Source: an uncultured Saprospiraceae bacterium
Lineage (GTDB): Bacteria > Bacteroidota > Bacteroidia > Chitinophagales > Saprospiraceae
Direction: 5' to 3'
Length of the DNA: 64,000 nt
Assembly: GCA_937928045.1 (NCBI GenBank)
Contig: CALFWO010000025.1
Location: 1-64,000 of the forward strand
In this document: positions 4,888 through 10,646 of the stretch, one piece after another
Numbering within the stretch: the stretch's first letter is position 1
Layout: each line of letters begins with the position of its first letter
Position numbers and translations under genes: made by a program
The notes under the pieces: generated by a model
Told to the model about the DNA's origin: nothing
The model's input: only the letters and a program-made list of their open reading frames with translations
Database searches by the model: none

Positions 4888-5583
4888 ATGTTTGATATAT
4901 CATCGCTACAATACAATTCTGACAATCCTGCATTGATTGCAATCATCTTCACTGTATTAGCAGCAGTAGCCTTAGGGACATTGATTGCTTTCACCTATGA
5001 AAAGACGACCAGAGATATCGAAAGACCTGATCACTTTCTTCAAGCTATGGTTTTAATTACCGTAGTAGCAGCAACCATTCTACAAGCAATTGGAGATAGT
5101 GTTGCAAGAGGATTGGGTATGTTAGGAGCATTGTCTATTATTCGATTTCGAACTACGATAAGAAATCCTAGAAACATTGTTTTTATGTTCAGTTCAATTG
5201 CAGCAGGAATTGCGTGCGGAGTATATGGTTTCATGATCGCATTCGTTGGTACAATTGGCTTTTGTCTAACTGCCTTTATTTTAAGACTAAGTTCATTTAG
5301 TCCCAAAAAATCATTAATAGGAACTTTGAGAATAGAAGTGCCAAGAAATTATTCAGAATTTCCAACGATGGAAAAAATATTGAATAGATTTTGCGCCAAA
5401 TATGTATTGGCAAGTTACAAAGTATATTCTGGTGAAAAAAAGGCCAACATGATGCAATACGAATATAGAATAAAGCTGAAAGATACAAGTCAGGGAGGTG
5501 AGTTGGTTGCGGAACTGAATGAATTCATAGAATTAAAAGTGACAAATTTGAGTTTTAAGGGAAGTACATCCGATCAAATTTAA
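4888..5583 (+). CDS. DUF4956 family inner-membrane protein
   Basis: The protein has 231 residues with about four hydrophobic segments in the first ~135 residues and a soluble C-terminal ~95-residue domain. The signature GALSIIRFRTTIRNPRN around residues 77-93 followed by a small-residue helix (IAAGIACGVYG) is typical of DUF4956. Family members are often found beside VTC-type polyphosphate polymerases and CotH-like kinases, but neither is present here. Instead it opens a tight cassette with an HlyD-type adaptor (gap 23 bases) and a TolC-like protein. Its role is unknown; from context it may be the inner-membrane part of a tripartite assembly. The start codon overlaps a palindrome, which suggests repression at or near translation start. 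Confidence 0.85.
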   Translation: MFDISSLQYNSDNPALIAIIFTVLAAVALGTLIAFTYEKTTRDIERPDHFLQAMVLITVVAATILQAIGDSVARGLGMLGALSIIRFRTTIRNPRNIVFMFSSIAAGIACGVYGFMIAFVGTIGFCLTAFILRLSSFSPKKSLIGTLRIEVPRNYSEFPTMEKILNRFCAKYVLASYKVYSGEKKANMMQYEYRIKLKDTSQGGELVAELNEFIELKVTNLSFKGSTSDQI

Positions 5584-5606
5584 CTTGTACCATTGGTTAT
5601 AAGCTT

Positions 5607-6704
5607 ATGTTAAAAAAGATAAATATACTTTATATACTATTCATTCCATTATGCTATGTGTTATGGCAAATGAACGTTGGCCTAACCCAAACGTCTCCAT
5701 TTTTTTATGGTTTTGCAGAAAACAAAGAGACCGAATTGAGCCATTATGAACACGTAACCGTAGAGAAAATTCATGTAACACCTGGTCAGCAGGTCGTAAA
5801 AGGTCAACTACTTCTTGAAGTAAAACAATCCAATATTGATTTAAAAATTGGAGCGGCTGGAATGGATATAGAAAGACTTAACGTAATAACTCAACAGGAA
5901 AAACTAAATATTAAAGCGAAAATTCGGGAACTAAGTTTACGAATTGAGAATGAAGTAAGTGAGCACCTAGTTAATAAAAGGAATTTAGAGTTAAGTATAG
6001 AAAGTAAAAATGATTTACTTAAAGGATTAAAAAGTTTTGAAGATGTTCCAACTAATACAAATTCTTCTGATGCGCTAAAATTAGCAGCTTTAGATGAAAA
6101 ACTTGAAATCACACTAGCTCCAATTAAACTTGAAATTTCAGAACTTAATAGGCAACTGTCTAATAGCCAAAGTCCAGAACAAATCAGACAGCAATCTTTA
6201 GAACAAGAAATTAGTTATCTCAAAAAAGAGCAAGACAAACTGTCCATTCTTGCACCATCGGATGGTTTAATAGGAAACATACTTTGCAAAGAAGATGAAA
6301 ACATTAATGGATTCTCAACTTTAATCAATTTCTATGAACGTTACCCTACTCTAGTCAAAGGTTTCGTTCACGAAAGCCTTATTCTCAAAGTAAAAGTTGA
6401 TGATAGTTTGGTGGTATCGAGTACTATGCATCCAGATCATAAAGTGAAAGGAATTGTAGTAGGAATGGGAACCAGAATAGTAGAAATTCCAGAAAGGCTA
6501 AGGAAAATACCAGATTTCAAAACTTATGGTCGAGAAGTACTTATTAGAATTCCTTCAAAAAATCCTTTTTTGCAGAAAGAAAAAGTTATGCTAAATTCCT
6601 TAAGTGGAGAAGAACAAAGCAGTCTTTCTGTCATGTTATCTCAATTTACTAATTACAATAGTAAAGAGAAAAAAAGAATATCTAAATCTTTACAAAACAA
6701 CTGA
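5607..6704 (+). CDS. HlyD-type periplasmic adaptor (membrane fusion protein)
   Basis: The protein has 365 residues: an N-terminal membrane anchor (about residues 5-22), a split lipoyl-like half-motif (VEKIHVTPGQQVVKGQLLLE, about 51-70), a long charged coiled-coil hairpin (about 90-205), the matching second half with APSDGLIGNI near 213-222, and a beta-barrel region. This order is that of adaptors linking inner-membrane pumps to TolC-type channels. The coiled coil is long, which suits docking onto the outer-membrane protein encoded 13 bases downstream. No ABC, RND or MFS transporter gene is adjacent, so the energised partner is either elsewhere or is the DUF4956 protein. Confidence 0.82.
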   Translation: MLKKINILYILFIPLCYVLWQMNVGLTQTSPFFYGFAENKETELSHYEHVTVEKIHVTPGQQVVKGQLLLEVKQSNIDLKIGAAGMDIERLNVITQQEKLNIKAKIRELSLRIENEVSEHLVNKRNLELSIESKNDLLKGLKSFEDVPTNTNSSDALKLAALDEKLEITLAPIKLEISELNRQLSNSQSPEQIRQQSLEQEISYLKKEQDKLSILAPSDGLIGNILCKEDENINGFSTLINFYERYPTLVKGFVHESLILKVKVDDSLVVSSTMHPDHKVKGIVVGMGTRIVEIPERLRKIPDFKTYGREVLIRIPSKNPFLQKEKVMLNSLSGEEQSSLSVMLSQFTNYNSKEKKRISKSLQNN

Positions 6705-6717
6705 TTGGATATATTGC

Positions 6718-7986
6718 ATGAGTAATTTCGCACTAATATATTTTCGCAAATTTTGCACTTTGATTTTCGTCGTTCTACTAAGTTCGACTCTCTTATTAGC
6801 GCAAGAAAATTCCGTCAAAGATGTCTTAGCCCCTTTGCATAAAGCTAATTTCAACATCAACTATGGAGATCAACTAAATTTCTTACTAAACGAAAACCAA
6901 AATATTCCAATTCTGGACAAGTTAGAATTCAGAACCGAAACTGATGAAATGGATTTATCTAGACAAGAATATCTTTTCAGAACAAGTTTCAACAGTTTTG
7001 GTAGCAATAAAATACAAAACAAAATTACTTCAAACTCTGTATCATACTACCAATTAAAAGATCAGCAATTAGCAGAAATACAACTAAAAAACCAGTACGA
7101 AAGAATTGTTGATTGGTACTACGAAACTAATAAACTTGATTTAGTAAAAGCTCAGCTAGTTATCGAAAAGGACAAATTAGTCGTTCTTAAAAAAATGGTA
7201 ACTACTTCACAAGAAATTGATTTAGTAAATATTCTTAAGCTTGAAAATGAAATAATAAATTTAGAAAGAGATCAGTTAAGAATTTCAAGTAACATTGAAC
7301 AAAGAAAGCAGCTCATTTTTAAGCAGATCGGTAAAAATTCTGGAACCAATCTATATACGCAGAATTGGATTTCTTTAGATCAAATGTACACTCTGCTAAC
7401 TTCTCAACGTCCAGATGAGTTTCCATCCACGGACCAGCAGTTACTTTCTAATCGTCTTGAAGAAGCTGAGTTAGCACTAGCCTTTGAAAATTCCGAACGT
7501 AAAAAAATACTAGACTTTGTTCAATTCAAATATTCTGGGAGAGAAACGAACTTAATTAGAAATGAAATTTCTTTTGGCGCCGGAATTAACATCCCCACTC
7601 CGTCAAGTGAACGACGAAGAATGAATGAAAGGCAAATTGAAATATTTGATGAACAATTCAAAATTGATCTTTTTCAATATAAATTGGAATCTGAACTACA
7701 AGAGCTGCTAAATGAGTTTATGAATATTAGAGCTGAATATTTGCTTATAGAAAAGCAAGAAAAACAGCAAGATTTAAAAGGAACCTTAGCATCATATACG
7801 AAATCTGGTTTTGCCCAACCGCTAAGCTTGTTACAAATCAATGAATCAATATTGGACTATAAAAAATCGCTTCATGATCTGGAACATGACGCATGCAAAG
7901 TGTATATAGACTATTTAATGACGCAGGGAAAGATCAACATACTTTCCAATACCAACTTCTTGTCTAACGACCTTGAAACTTTTTAA
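6718..7986 (+). CDS. TolC-like outer-membrane channel protein
   Basis: I choose the ATG at 6718 because it gives a signal peptide (about residues 1-29, ending LLLAQ); an upstream in-frame start at 6604 would overlap the adaptor gene by 100 bases. The 422-residue protein is dominated by long amphipathic helices rich in Glu, Lys, Leu and Gln, with a repeat of the form found in outer-membrane efflux proteins (helices at about 140-200 and 330-410) and a beta-strand segment near 285-315 (GAGINIPTP). It would form the outer-membrane exit duct for the preceding adaptor. Sequence divergence from classical TolC is high, so the assignment rests on architecture and context. Confidence 0.72.
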   Translation: MSNFALIYFRKFCTLIFVVLLSSTLLLAQENSVKDVLAPLHKANFNINYGDQLNFLLNENQNIPILDKLEFRTETDEMDLSRQEYLFRTSFNSFGSNKIQNKITSNSVSYYQLKDQQLAEIQLKNQYERIVDWYYETNKLDLVKAQLVIEKDKLVVLKKMVTTSQEIDLVNILKLENEIINLERDQLRISSNIEQRKQLIFKQIGKNSGTNLYTQNWISLDQMYTLLTSQRPDEFPSTDQQLLSNRLEEAELALAFENSERKKILDFVQFKYSGRETNLIRNEISFGAGINIPTPSSERRRMNERQIEIFDEQFKIDLFQYKLESELQELLNEFMNIRAEYLLIEKQEKQQDLKGTLASYTKSGFAQPLSLLQINESILDYKKSLHDLEHDACKVYIDYLMTQGKINILSNTNFLSNDLETF

Positions 7987-8029: not shown

Positions 8030-8692
8030 TTACTTAAGCAAAAAAGAAACTTCCATACTATACCCCTTGTATCTTCCTTCGCTTTCCGCAAATTTAGTTG
8101 TAATCTTCCCAAAACTCCCAAAAGGTGCTGGAGTCATACCTAATACAGCTCCTGTATTGTCATTTATGGAAATTAATTCTACATCATTATACCCTCTCAA
8201 TCTGGCCACATTTAATGCTTTTCTCTTGGCTTCTTCAAACGCTTTGACTGCCCAATTGTCTTGTTCTTCTAAATCGTATTCTGGAAAATGAGAAAAGTAT
8301 GTGAAATTCTCTGCGAAACCTTCTTTGGCCCATTTATACATTGCTCTCATTTCTTCTTCCGAATTGTACTCAAAGGAATAGGTTCTTTTAGAATTTTTTG
8401 TAAAGTAATCTTCCATTTTATCAACTAAAACAATACGATCAGAAACATCTGTATTGTTGATAATTTCATAAATGAAAAAATTGTATTGCTCTTCTAATGT
8501 TTCGAATTGGGCATTGGGTCCGCAAGTAACTCCATTTTCAACAAAAGAAAATTCCATAGTGTGAGAAACGGGCATATCTTTCCAGTCATACCTACCAGTA
8601 ACTGTTATCATATTATCAGCTTGGGCTTGGACACCAATATTTAAACAGAAGATTATGACGAACAAAAACAAATTTTTAATCCAATAGCTCAT
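8030..8692 (-). CDS. SIMPL-like (DUF541-related) secreted protein
   Basis: A signal peptide occupies about residues 1-24 (ending GVQAQ). The pattern AVKAFEEAKRKALNVARLRG near residue 150 followed by a short beta segment mentioning the effect of maturation (VELISINDN) and a final strand pair (YSMEVSFLLK) matches the SIMPL/DUF541 fold, though the N-terminal half is divergent and carries an inserted Cys (TCGPNAQ). It overlaps the end of the upstream SIMPL gene by 17 bases, so the two are co-transcribed and probably act together in the periplasm or at the outer membrane. The function of SIMPL proteins in Bacteroidota is not established. Confidence 0.7.
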   Translation of the reverse strand: MSYWIKNLFLFVIIFCLNIGVQAQADNMITVTGRYDWKDMPVSHTMEFSFVENGVTCGPNAQFETLEEQYNFFIYEIINNTDVSDRIVLVDKMEDYFTKNSKRTYSFEYNSEEEMRAMYKWAKEGFAENFTYFSHFPEYDLEEQDNWAVKAFEEAKRKALNVARLRGYNDVELISINDNTGAVLGMTPAPFGSFGKITTKFAESEGRYKGYSMEVSFLLK

Positions 8693-9287
8693 AAGTAATC
8701 ACTAGTTTATAATTAAAATTAGATGTACTTCCTTTTTTTGACCCAATAAATCGTTTTTTACTAGACGCCATATCCTCAATATTTATAACATCTCCTACTT
8801 TCTTACCTACATGTTTTGCTAACGCCTCTGCCTTTCTTTTAGCATCACTCATGGCCATTTTGGCCATTTCATAATCATCGAATTCTAACTCTGAATTATA
8901 AACATATTCAAAGCCTTGTGCTGAAAATCCTTTTATTGAAAACTTAGTAATCTGTTTTGCATCTTCTATTGACTTTACATTAAGAAAATAATCAGTAGCC
9001 TCTACCTTTTTATAATTTCTTTTTGGAGGCCATATTTCTTCTAAGTCATTGATCGAATAACCCAATGTCTTGAGATTAGCATCCAATTCCAATTTGACTT
9101 CTTCTAAACTCTTTTCTCTTATTTTTTGATATTCGTCCCTGGCTATTTCCGTCACCGTCAATTTGATTCGCATGTCATCAGCTGGTACTTCCAAATTGGC
9201 TATACCTACTATTTTGATAAATTTTTCGCCCTGGCTAATGGCCAAAATCGGAATACAAAGCAAAAAGGTGATTAGGTAATTTTTCAT
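8676..9287 (-). CDS. SIMPL domain (DUF541) periplasmic protein
   Basis: The start at 9287 puts a clean signal peptide first (MKNYLITFLLCIPILAIS); an ATG four codons upstream (9299) is an alternative. The mature part begins with the SIMPL-type strand IKIVGIANLEVPADDMRIKL and contains the diagnostic MAMSDAKRKAEALAKHVGKK near residue 150 and a closing strand KLVITYELLD. SIMPL proteins form oligomeric shells or signalling adaptors in other bacteria; here the role is unknown. It is the first gene of a two-gene minus-strand operon convergent with the TolC-like gene. Confidence 0.82.
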   Translation of the reverse strand: MKNYLITFLLCIPILAISQGEKFIKIVGIANLEVPADDMRIKLTVTEIARDEYQKIREKSLEEVKLELDANLKTLGYSINDLEEIWPPKRNYKKVEATDYFLNVKSIEDAKQITKFSIKGFSAQGFEYVYNSELEFDDYEMAKMAMSDAKRKAEALAKHVGKKVGDVINIEDMASSKKRFIGSKKGSTSNFNYKLVITYELLD

Positions 9288-9405
9288 GATTATTGGCATT
9301 TGTATTTAATTTTCTGAAGCTAAGATAAGTATTTCAAATGGGTCTATAACAAGGTATTAGGGAACTACTGAATCTAAACATTTGGAAAAATAACATATAT
9401 TTTAT

Positions 9406-9436
9406 TTTGAAAGTTCGAAAGTTGCCGTTACCTTGC
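9406..9436 (+). promoter_or_regulatory. Bacteroidota-type promoter for the small leader-peptide gene
   Basis: TTTG at 9406-9409 is followed after exactly 19 bases by TACCTTGC at 9429-9436, close to the consensus TTTG-N19-TAnnTTTG of Bacteroidota housekeeping promoters. Transcription would begin near 9443, about 30 bases before the ATG at 9474. Confidence 0.55.
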
Positions 9437-9473
9437 GGGATATCAGGATCGAAAATCACTAAATAGATTCAAT

Positions 9474-9623
9474 ATGATTGATAAAATGACGTTAAAATTG
9501 GGCAGTCTTGGAGATGACTTCCAGCTTATCAACCCTGATTCTATGTCGAAAATCACGGGAGGAGCTACTCTTTCTAGACCGCCAAGTCTAATTTCTACAT
9601 GTGGAGGAATCATGCCTTCATAG
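9474..9623 (+). CDS. Small double-glycine leader peptide (candidate RiPP/bacteriocin precursor)
   Basis: A 49-codon gene with its own promoter and terminator. The N-terminal 30 residues end in KITGG and show the alternating hydrophobic pattern of double-glycine leaders (LKLGSLGDDFQLI then MSKITGG), very like the short leaders of Bacteroidota natural-product precursors. Cleavage after Gly30 would release a 19-residue core rich in Ser, Thr, Pro and Gly with a single Cys (ATLSRPPSLISTCGGIMPS). A second ATG at codon 5 (9486) could also be used. No modifying enzyme, peptidase or C39-type ABC transporter is encoded nearby, so the peptide is an orphan in this window; it could also be a signal peptide of a quorum-type system. 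Confidence 0.68.
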   Translation: MIDKMTLKLGSLGDDFQLINPDSMSKITGGATLSRPPSLISTCGGIMPS

Positions 9624-9648
9624 CCGATCTAATGATTCAGACAAGAAA

Positions 9649-9679
9649 GGCAATACCATTCATTGGTATTGCCTTTTTT
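9649..9679 (+). terminator. Rho-independent terminator of the leader-peptide gene
   Basis: A perfect 10-bp stem (9649-9658 with 9664-9673) with a 5-base loop is followed by six T. It ends a transcript of about 240 bases, which supports the small gene being a real monocistronic unit. Confidence 0.9.
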
Positions 9680-9779
9680 CATTTATATATTACCTCTTAA
9701 CATTTGATCGTCAAAATGGCAAATTGACTACCTTTAACAATGACATAGCAAATCAGGCTTGAAAAACATAAATTGATGT

Positions 9780-10646
9780 ATGAATCGTTTAAATTTTAAA
9801 CTCTTCATTGTCTTGCTCCTTTGGAGTCTTACTATCAAAGGCCAGTCTCTAGAAAATAAGGATTGTTCTACTGCATTGGATCTTTGCGGAGTATCACCCT
9901 TTCAACTAATTTCAACAGAGGGGGTTGGAATGCAAGATACCATTCTACAGAATTCGTGCTTGGCTTCAGAATACAATTCCCTCTGGATCAAAATAAACAT
10001 TCAATCAGAAGGTTATCTTACTTTCAAGTTCACACCTAACAATCCTACAGTCGATTTAGACTTTGCAGTATTTAGAAGTGCACTATCGAACTGTGAAAAC
10101 AATGAGTTGATTAGATGTATGGCTTCGGGAATTAATATTGGTAATCCCGATTCTACACAACTCGATCGATGTCTAGGAGCAACAGGATTGAGGGAAAATG
10201 AAATTGACTTTGAAGAAACTAGTGGATGTCAAGCTGCTGATAACAATTTTCTCGCGCCAATTGACTGCCAATTAGGGGAAGTCTATTACATCATATTAAA
10301 CGATTTCTCTTACGCCTTGGATACGACAATGCTGGAATTCGGTGGCACCGCTGAGATCAATTGTATTACGACAAATATTTCTGAATCGAATTTTAAACCA
10401 GAACAAATTTCTCTATTCCCTAATCCTTCAGTTGGCCCGATCAACTACCATATACCTGAACAATATGTTGGAGGATCACTAAGACTAATTGACCTGCAAG
10501 GAAATACGGTTCATTTTATTGAAAAATTAGTTTCCCGTTCAGGAAATTTACTTTTGAGTCAATTAGAAAATGGAATGTATAGCATTGTCATTTCAAATAA
10601 GAATAGTTCAATTGCCGAACGATTTCAAATATTCCACCATAACTAG
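9780..10646 (+). CDS. Secreted protein with T9SS type A sorting domain
   Basis: The 288-residue protein begins with a signal peptide (about 1-22, ending TIKGQ). Residues ~25-195 form a Cys-containing beta domain with the pattern found in many Bacteroidota secreted proteins: CSTALDLCG, then SLWIKINIQSEGYLTFKF, then DLDFAVFR, and a final YYIILNDFS. This resembles the pre-peptidase C-terminal or jelly-roll modules. A type A sorting domain begins near residue 208 (LFPNPSVGPINYHI) and ends with MYSIVISN and FQIFHHN. It is likely exported and surface-attached; no enzymatic motif is visible. Confidence 0.85.
   Translation: MNRLNFKLFIVLLLWSLTIKGQSLENKDCSTALDLCGVSPFQLISTEGVGMQDTILQNSCLASEYNSLWIKINIQSEGYLTFKFTPNNPTVDLDFAVFRSALSNCENNELIRCMASGINIGNPDSTQLDRCLGATGLRENEIDFEETSGCQAADNNFLAPIDCQLGEVYYIILNDFSYALDTTMLEFGGTAEINCITTNISESNFKPEQISLFPNPSVGPINYHIPEQYVGGSLRLIDLQGNTVHFIEKLVSRSGNLLLSQLENGMYSIVISNKNSSIAERFQIFHHN

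Follow-up and report, generated by a model that had tools for sequence, protein, structure and literature searches.

The double-glycine leader peptide encoded at 9474-9623 of the window, by which we mean the whole 64,000-nucleotide stretch of DNA analysed, is probably a cell-to-cell signal, since in many bacteria of one Gram-negative family the genes of its relatives are flanked by genes for a sensor kinase and for the regulator paired with it. On balance, we favour a system in which a C39-exported peptide signal would be read by a cytosolic TPR kinase and in which the window copy would serve as a second, unlinked source. The linkage of the relatives, their co-occurrence with C39 transporters and the conserved C-terminal end of the peptide together make it fit for the peptide signal of a three-component system. 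The window gene comprises the following features.

9474-9623, forward strand: peptide open reading frame of 49 codons, with the leader MIDKMTLKLGSLGDDFQLINPDSMSKITGG and the core ATLSRPPSLISTCGGIMPS
9406-9436, forward strand: promoter-like site, with TTTG at 9406-9409, a 19-base spacer and TACCTTGC at 9429-9436
9474-9563, forward strand: double-glycine leader of 30 codons, ending in KITGG, with I-4, M-7, I-12 and F-15
9564-9620, forward strand: predicted mature core ATLSRPPSLISTCGGIMPS, 19 residues with one Cys, as expected from cleavage after GG
9597-9620, forward strand: conserved C-terminal end, here TCGGIMPS, corresponding to the motif [C]GGI[VLIM]P[Q/S] of the family
9643-9679, forward strand: intrinsic terminator of 16 pairs, followed by a T-run

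The sequence-only reading had described a 49-codon gene for a double-glycine leader peptide with a 19-residue, one-Cys core, and this gene is indeed present; it is real beyond chance. The C39-leader rule (hydrophobic residues at -4, -7, -12 and -15 relative to a GG, with 10-60 residues after it) was satisfied by 1 of the 422 window ORFs of 30-120 aa, versus 5 of 8440 residue-shuffled ORFs. The terminator claimed for the gene is confirmed, being the sole one found within 9250-9850 (0.2 in shuffles), while the promoter, described as near-consensus, stands in part. In Bacteroidota, the -33/-7 promoter pattern is TTTG / TAnnTTTG. The site at 9406-9436 is near this pattern but inexact, the exact -7 box being absent from the window, and an E. 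coli-type promoter scan did not include it in its output. On the other hand, TACCTT is enriched upstream of the peptide family (16 of 56 non-redundant upstream regions, 3.35 expected). The exact -7 box TAnnTTTG precedes 31 of the 61 family genes (mean 9.4 and maximum 19 in shuffles), and the window copy is not one of them. Terminators follow 34 of these 61 genes, versus 0-2 in five shuffles, so that a large share of the copies seem to be transcribed separately as short units, including those between the regulator and the kinase. No regulator-binding operator common to the family was found upstream; the search gave only the -7-like box and repeats from coding ends. Downstream of the window gene, a secreted protein (9780-10646) has relatives in five of six genomes, and the search with this protein did not point to any conservation of the gene neighbourhood around the window copy.

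The window peptide belongs to a family. Its own genome carries a paralogue with 63% identity on contig C13 (C13:75938-76084), and a genome of the same genus holds a relative that is 67% identical. With a profile built from 10 peptides (A1), matches at E<=0.05 were obtained in 172 of the 398 Saprospiraceae genomes, and with one built from 45 peptides (A2), matches at E<=0.01 in 187 of the 398, including 129 of the 275 genomes of higher completeness; the latter matches span 59 of 112 genera. Lewinella belongs to the same bacterial family as the peptide-positive genomes. At the level of the order, 16 of 198 genomes matched, all within the bacterial family of the window. In the initial peptide search, no match in a genome of another bacterial family scored better than E 0.2; plasmids gave no match to the peptide. 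Most of the 20 short loci fetched as weak matches of this initial search were rejected, as frames lying inside other genes or containing stops, and a first pattern scan of genome contigs with the peptide produced 353 pattern matches and no relative.

Peptide anatomy was compared over 50 peptides, namely 49 loci and the window copy, L028 having been left out beforehand as a match inside a long ORF. Since the peptides were found by profiles built from the same family, these figures are descriptive and do not constitute an independent test. The leader is hydrophobic at -4 in 98%, at -7 in 84%, at -12 in 100% and at -15 in 88% of the peptides, and 40 of the 50 carry D/E at -8. The core measures 16-24 residues and ends in a CGGI[VLIM]PQ-like motif, with the second-last Pro in 49, the last Gln in 43 and the motif Cys in 40 of the 50; the absence of Cys from ten cores indicates that this residue is not essential to the family. 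The last residue is Ser in three peptides, all apparently from the genus of the window, judging by the sequences compared. The most conserved part of the core is its extreme C-terminus and the remainder is variable. The C-terminal TCGGIMPS is identical in the window peptide and its C13 paralogue, which share all but one of their C-terminal nine residues. Conservation in relatives had been named beforehand as a check, and the leader is conserved and the homologous frames are open. The family is under purifying selection: two Neolewinella-type copies (L066 and L175) differ with dN 0.022 and dS 0.872, 16 of their 18 changed codons being synonymous, and in the comparison of the window and C13 copies 36 codons differ, 18 of them synonymously, with dS saturated.

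The C13 paralogue sits between a response regulator gene and a kinase gene. The window gene had been called an orphan, and this holds for the copy itself, with no regulator, kinase or C39 matched within the window (regulator and kinase threshold 1e-5), but not for its paralogue. The 49 loci consist of 40 neighbourhoods hand-chosen from the matches, mostly one per genus, and nine earlier ones. With neighbours required on the same strand, the regulator at most 900 bases upstream and the kinase at most 600 downstream, 34 loci have both, six the regulator only, three the kinase only and six neither. By Pfam, the regulators combine Response_reg with LytTR, and the kinases carry TPR repeats followed by His_kinase (PF06580) and HATPase_c. 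Viewed from the kinase, a named collection returned 80 loci, of which 27 have a close kinase (E<=4e-109) and 53 a more remote one (E>=2e-60). At E<0.05, the peptide accompanies 19 of the 27 close loci and none of the 53 distant ones, 46 of which have a LytTR regulator match. Lewinella cohaerens DSM 23179 and Neolewinella marina MKG-38 (loci L164 and L176) each have the full set of regulator, peptide and kinase. Where the regulator adjoining a close kinase has at least 48% identity, the peptide is present in 17 of 17 loci, against 2 of the 10 other close loci, some of which lie near contig ends; the loci of the collection are partly the same records as our genomes, so the two sets overlap. Among 23 peptide-negative genomes, a close kinase (E<1e-100) was detected in one, G028. 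Close TPR-kinase relatives that adjoin neither the peptide nor a close regulator also occur (L166, L174, L177 and L179-L183), several of them in Chitinophagales records.

The TPR kinase is predicted to be soluble: the maximum 19-residue hydropathy of 37 kinases is 0.55-1.58, versus 2.80-3.09 in five ion channels. For the L. cohaerens kinase, the TPR region was modelled with a pLDDT of 91. Among the 50 fold matches listed for this model, the best are LGN-type peptide-binding TPRs (Z up to 28.2), and 14 belong to the pheromone receptors Rap or NprR (Z 20.8-25.5), which account for all bacterial or phage chains listed. By sequence, the kinase TPRs match generic TPR chains at 9.7e-42 versus Rap at 3.6e-6. 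In the model, the kinase TPR domain thus resembles the Rap/NprR receptors, with other TPR proteins scoring equally or higher. TPR domains elsewhere recognise C-termini, and the conserved free C-terminus of the peptide, together with the TPR groove, suggests C-terminal recognition here. Comparison of the 36 TPR residues conserved in peptide-linked kinases revealed no peptide-specific signature: 27 are also conserved in seven kinases without the peptide and only three are lost.

Export by a C39 transporter is suggested by the leader and by the distribution of the transporter. The LahT C39 domain binds the leader pattern Val-4, Leu-7, Leu-12, according to passages of PMC6363468, and I-4, M-7 and I-12 of the window peptide, as well as the leader pattern of the family, agree with this substrate rule of C39 transporters (PCATs). 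The window peptide is therefore expected, from its sequence, to be cleaved after GG and exported by C39. To assess co-occurrence, 60 genomes at least 94% complete were hand-picked before testing. C39 was found in 37 of 37 peptide-positive versus 5 of 23 peptide-negative genomes (Fisher 3.6e-11, uncorrected for phylogeny) and, among genomes of up to 5 Mb, in 10 of 10 versus 3 of 19 (1.4e-5, likewise uncorrected). Exactly one C39 match occurs in 10 of the 37 positive genomes; in six of these ten (our own and nine fetched), a HlyD relative adjoins it. Around the ten single C39 genes, the leader rule gave candidates at three loci, only in frames within or across other ORFs. In five of the ten (L238, L239, L240, L243 and L065), a gene with the motif FMGTPxFAV, which we take to be a formyltransferase, lies near the C39 gene, a hint of a conserved exporter site.

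In the genome of the window, the single C39 match is a 729-aa ABC transporter at C26:23719. The genes after it encode HlyD and a Lant_dehydr_N-like protein of 802 aa, and the ORFs surrounding the transporter gene showed no GG precursor. The adaptor/TolC pair noted 1.5 kb upstream of the peptide is correctly placed, the two genes occupying 5607-7986, but the adaptor gave a weak RND_mfp match (9.4e-11, under the cut-off of that model) and the putative TolC gene no TolC match in NCBIfam or Pfam. This pair is probably irrelevant to the peptide, since the sole C39 transporter detected in this genome lies elsewhere, on C26, and has a HlyD gene to itself. In the same region of the window, 4888-7986 encodes in a row a DUF4956 membrane protein, the HlyD-like adaptor and the unconfirmed outer-membrane factor, without an ABC protein. 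On the reverse strand, 8030-9299 holds two further neighbours, one of 207 aa that matches SIMPL (DUF541) and one of 220 aa that has no clear Pfam match and looks alike by eye.

In the signalling system that we favour, the peptidase-containing ABC transporter on C26, with its HlyD, would cut the precursor after GG and export the resulting core, about 19 residues long. This signal would then be read, through its C-terminal CGGI-P-Q/S end, by a soluble histidine kinase with some nine TPR repeats, whose TPR domain is the presumed binding site and which would meet the peptide either after its return to the cytoplasm or before export. This kinase and the LytTR response regulator would be those encoded around the C13 paralogue, and the regulator would then change transcription. 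The window copy could feed the same kinase as a second signal source, as the near-identity of the C-terminal nine residues of the two copies suggests. More tentatively, and with less confidence than in the system as a whole, we propose that this Gram-negative family may have a distinct type of peptide signalling, in which the groove of the soluble TPR kinase would hold the exported peptide by the free C-terminal end, CGGI-P-Q. The kinase would then amount to a fusion of an RRNPP-like receptor with a LytS-type kinase, acting together with the LytTR regulator. If so, unlinked extra copies such as that of the window would place the supply of this receptor under a second promoter as well. Against a signal speak the missing linkage of the window copy and of six of the 49 other loci, as well as the C39 found in 5 of 23 peptide-negative genomes. 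The better matches of LGN-type and generic TPR proteins, the retention of nearly all conserved TPR residues in kinases without the peptide, and the failure to find a common upstream operator or an importer also count against it.

Of the three roles proposed from the sequence (RiPP, bacteriocin-like peptide or secreted signal), the last is favoured by the linkage of the homologues to the LytTR regulator and TPR kinase. The main rival, although an unlikely one, is a secreted effector: C39 would export a bacteriocin-like product, small and cationic, and the neighbouring two-component system would do no more than control its gene. Many homologues indeed have Lys-rich cores, with a net charge of +4 in two examples and +1 in the window copy, and weak Pfam Bacteriocin_IIc matches occur in 6 of 45 peptides. 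The generic bacteriocin leader model TIGR01847, covering 15 residues with a cut-off of 15.7 bits, is reached by three of 47 peptides (L085, 16.7; L088, 16.9; L096, 15.7), the window peptide giving no match; the six unlinked loci would also suit an effector. However, no immunity-type gene regularly adjoins the peptide in the loci surveyed, conservation concentrated at the extreme C-terminus of an otherwise variable core is more ligand-like, and retention of the peptide in all 17 regulator-kinase pairs is more typical of a system part than of a variable weapon.

We give a similarly low probability to an internal gauge, in which the kinase would bind the precursor or core inside the cytoplasm, prior to export, and measure export or peptide supply within one cell rather than population density. 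The predicted solubility of the kinase would suit such a role, and no importer was identified. Furthermore, G028, with its kinase and no C39 match, has a short ORF before the kinase (L138 / L114) that ends in CGVSTPQ and lacks GG, perhaps a leaderless relative; its match to the peptide profile is, however, insignificant (E 2.8). That almost every member has a leader tuned for C39 speaks for a real role of export.

That the peptide is a RiPP precursor modified at Cys, Ser or Thr, yielding a lanthipeptide, a radical-SAM product or the product of a LanB-like ligase, seems quite improbable. In favour of this reading, the C39 transporter gene on C26, the sole one detected, precedes those of HlyD and a Lant_dehydr_N protein (9.3e-17; in a row at L065:9908-15833), with no precursor seen nearby, and at E<=1 TIGR04149 matches were obtained for 16 of 45 peptides. 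In the search of RiPP leader models, which had been proposed as a check, the 25-bit cut-off of TIGR04149 was nevertheless reached by none of 47 peptides scanned singly (best 22.9; no match for the window peptide). As the sequence-only reading had noted for the window, no C39 peptidase, Lant_dehydr_N protein or radical-SAM protein was found on its contig, C25; the 16 radical-SAM matches of the genome include none on C25 or C13. A class I lanthipeptide is further disfavoured in that no LanB-type dehydratase lies by the precursor, the Lant_dehydr_N matches being on C26 and C38 only, and Cys is not constant, missing as it is from ten of 50 cores. The 802-aa C26 protein, considered as a dedicated modifying partner, gave relatives in 5 of the 37 genomes with the peptide and in none of the 23 without it; found in only five of the 60 genomes, it was dropped as a general partner. 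Having the Lant_dehydr_N domain only, it may be a LanB-like ligase that acts on its own. Elsewhere in the genome, a 767-aa frame at C38:67788-69728 matches Lant_dehydr_N far more strongly (1.8e-144). Finally, a chance ORF with a fortuitous promoter and terminator, to which the short length of the window peptide and its lack of any NCBIfam or Pfam match might point, is contradicted by conservation (paralogue, homologues, open frames and purifying selection) and can be dismissed.

Peptide quorum sensing has been described mainly for Gram-positive bacteria, and a candidate of this kind is not usually expected in a Gram-negative family, Gram-negative signals being given as small molecules in the relevant passages of PMC8895600. 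The peptide would be the first candidate ligand for soluble TPR histidine kinases. A set of peptide, kinase, regulator and exporter that is widespread in the family to which the culturable Lewinella belongs would make peptide communication in Bacteroidota directly testable. Our data also illustrate how the neighbours of a paralogue can explain an apparently orphan small gene.

Searches of the open-licence literature brought up no description of this peptide family, nor any of a Bacteroidota TPR histidine kinase that senses a peptide. Among known systems, TIGR04149 and related Bacteroidota GG-leader RiPP precursors have a similar leader end, and a paper on Bacteroidales RiPP clusters mentions, in one part, a cluster with a histidine kinase and a response regulator, suspecting signalling roles (PMC10352776). 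The present family differs from these RiPPs by its conserved C-terminal motif, by scores below the model cut-offs and by the absence from C25 and C13 of the modifying enzymes searched. The RRNPPA receptors (Rap, NprR and others) share a cytoplasmic TPR superhelix with the kinase, for the latter by prediction. Here, in contrast, the effector is a histidine kinase (PF06580, HATPase) with no HTH or Rap-type domain and the peptide has a GG leader; moreover, the RRNPPA family is treated as a Firmicutes one in sections of PMC9765709. The ComC/ComD/ComE (CSP) and BlpC/H/R systems of streptococci share with most of our loci a double-glycine peptide gene beside a kinase and a regulator, with C39 export presumed here. 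ComE is a LytTR-type regulator, like those in the loci of the peptide family. In passages of PMC7595303, the ComCDE and Blp peptides are indeed GG peptides exported by C39 and encoded next to a histidine kinase and a response regulator. The peptides do not reach the 50-bit cut-off of the ComC model (best 14.5). Unlike ComCDE, the system proposed here belongs to a Gram-negative family and would rely on a soluble kinase with TPR repeats instead of a membrane receptor; and whereas the window copy is unlinked, its paralogue and 34 of the 49 loci are linked to the kinase and the LytTR regulator.
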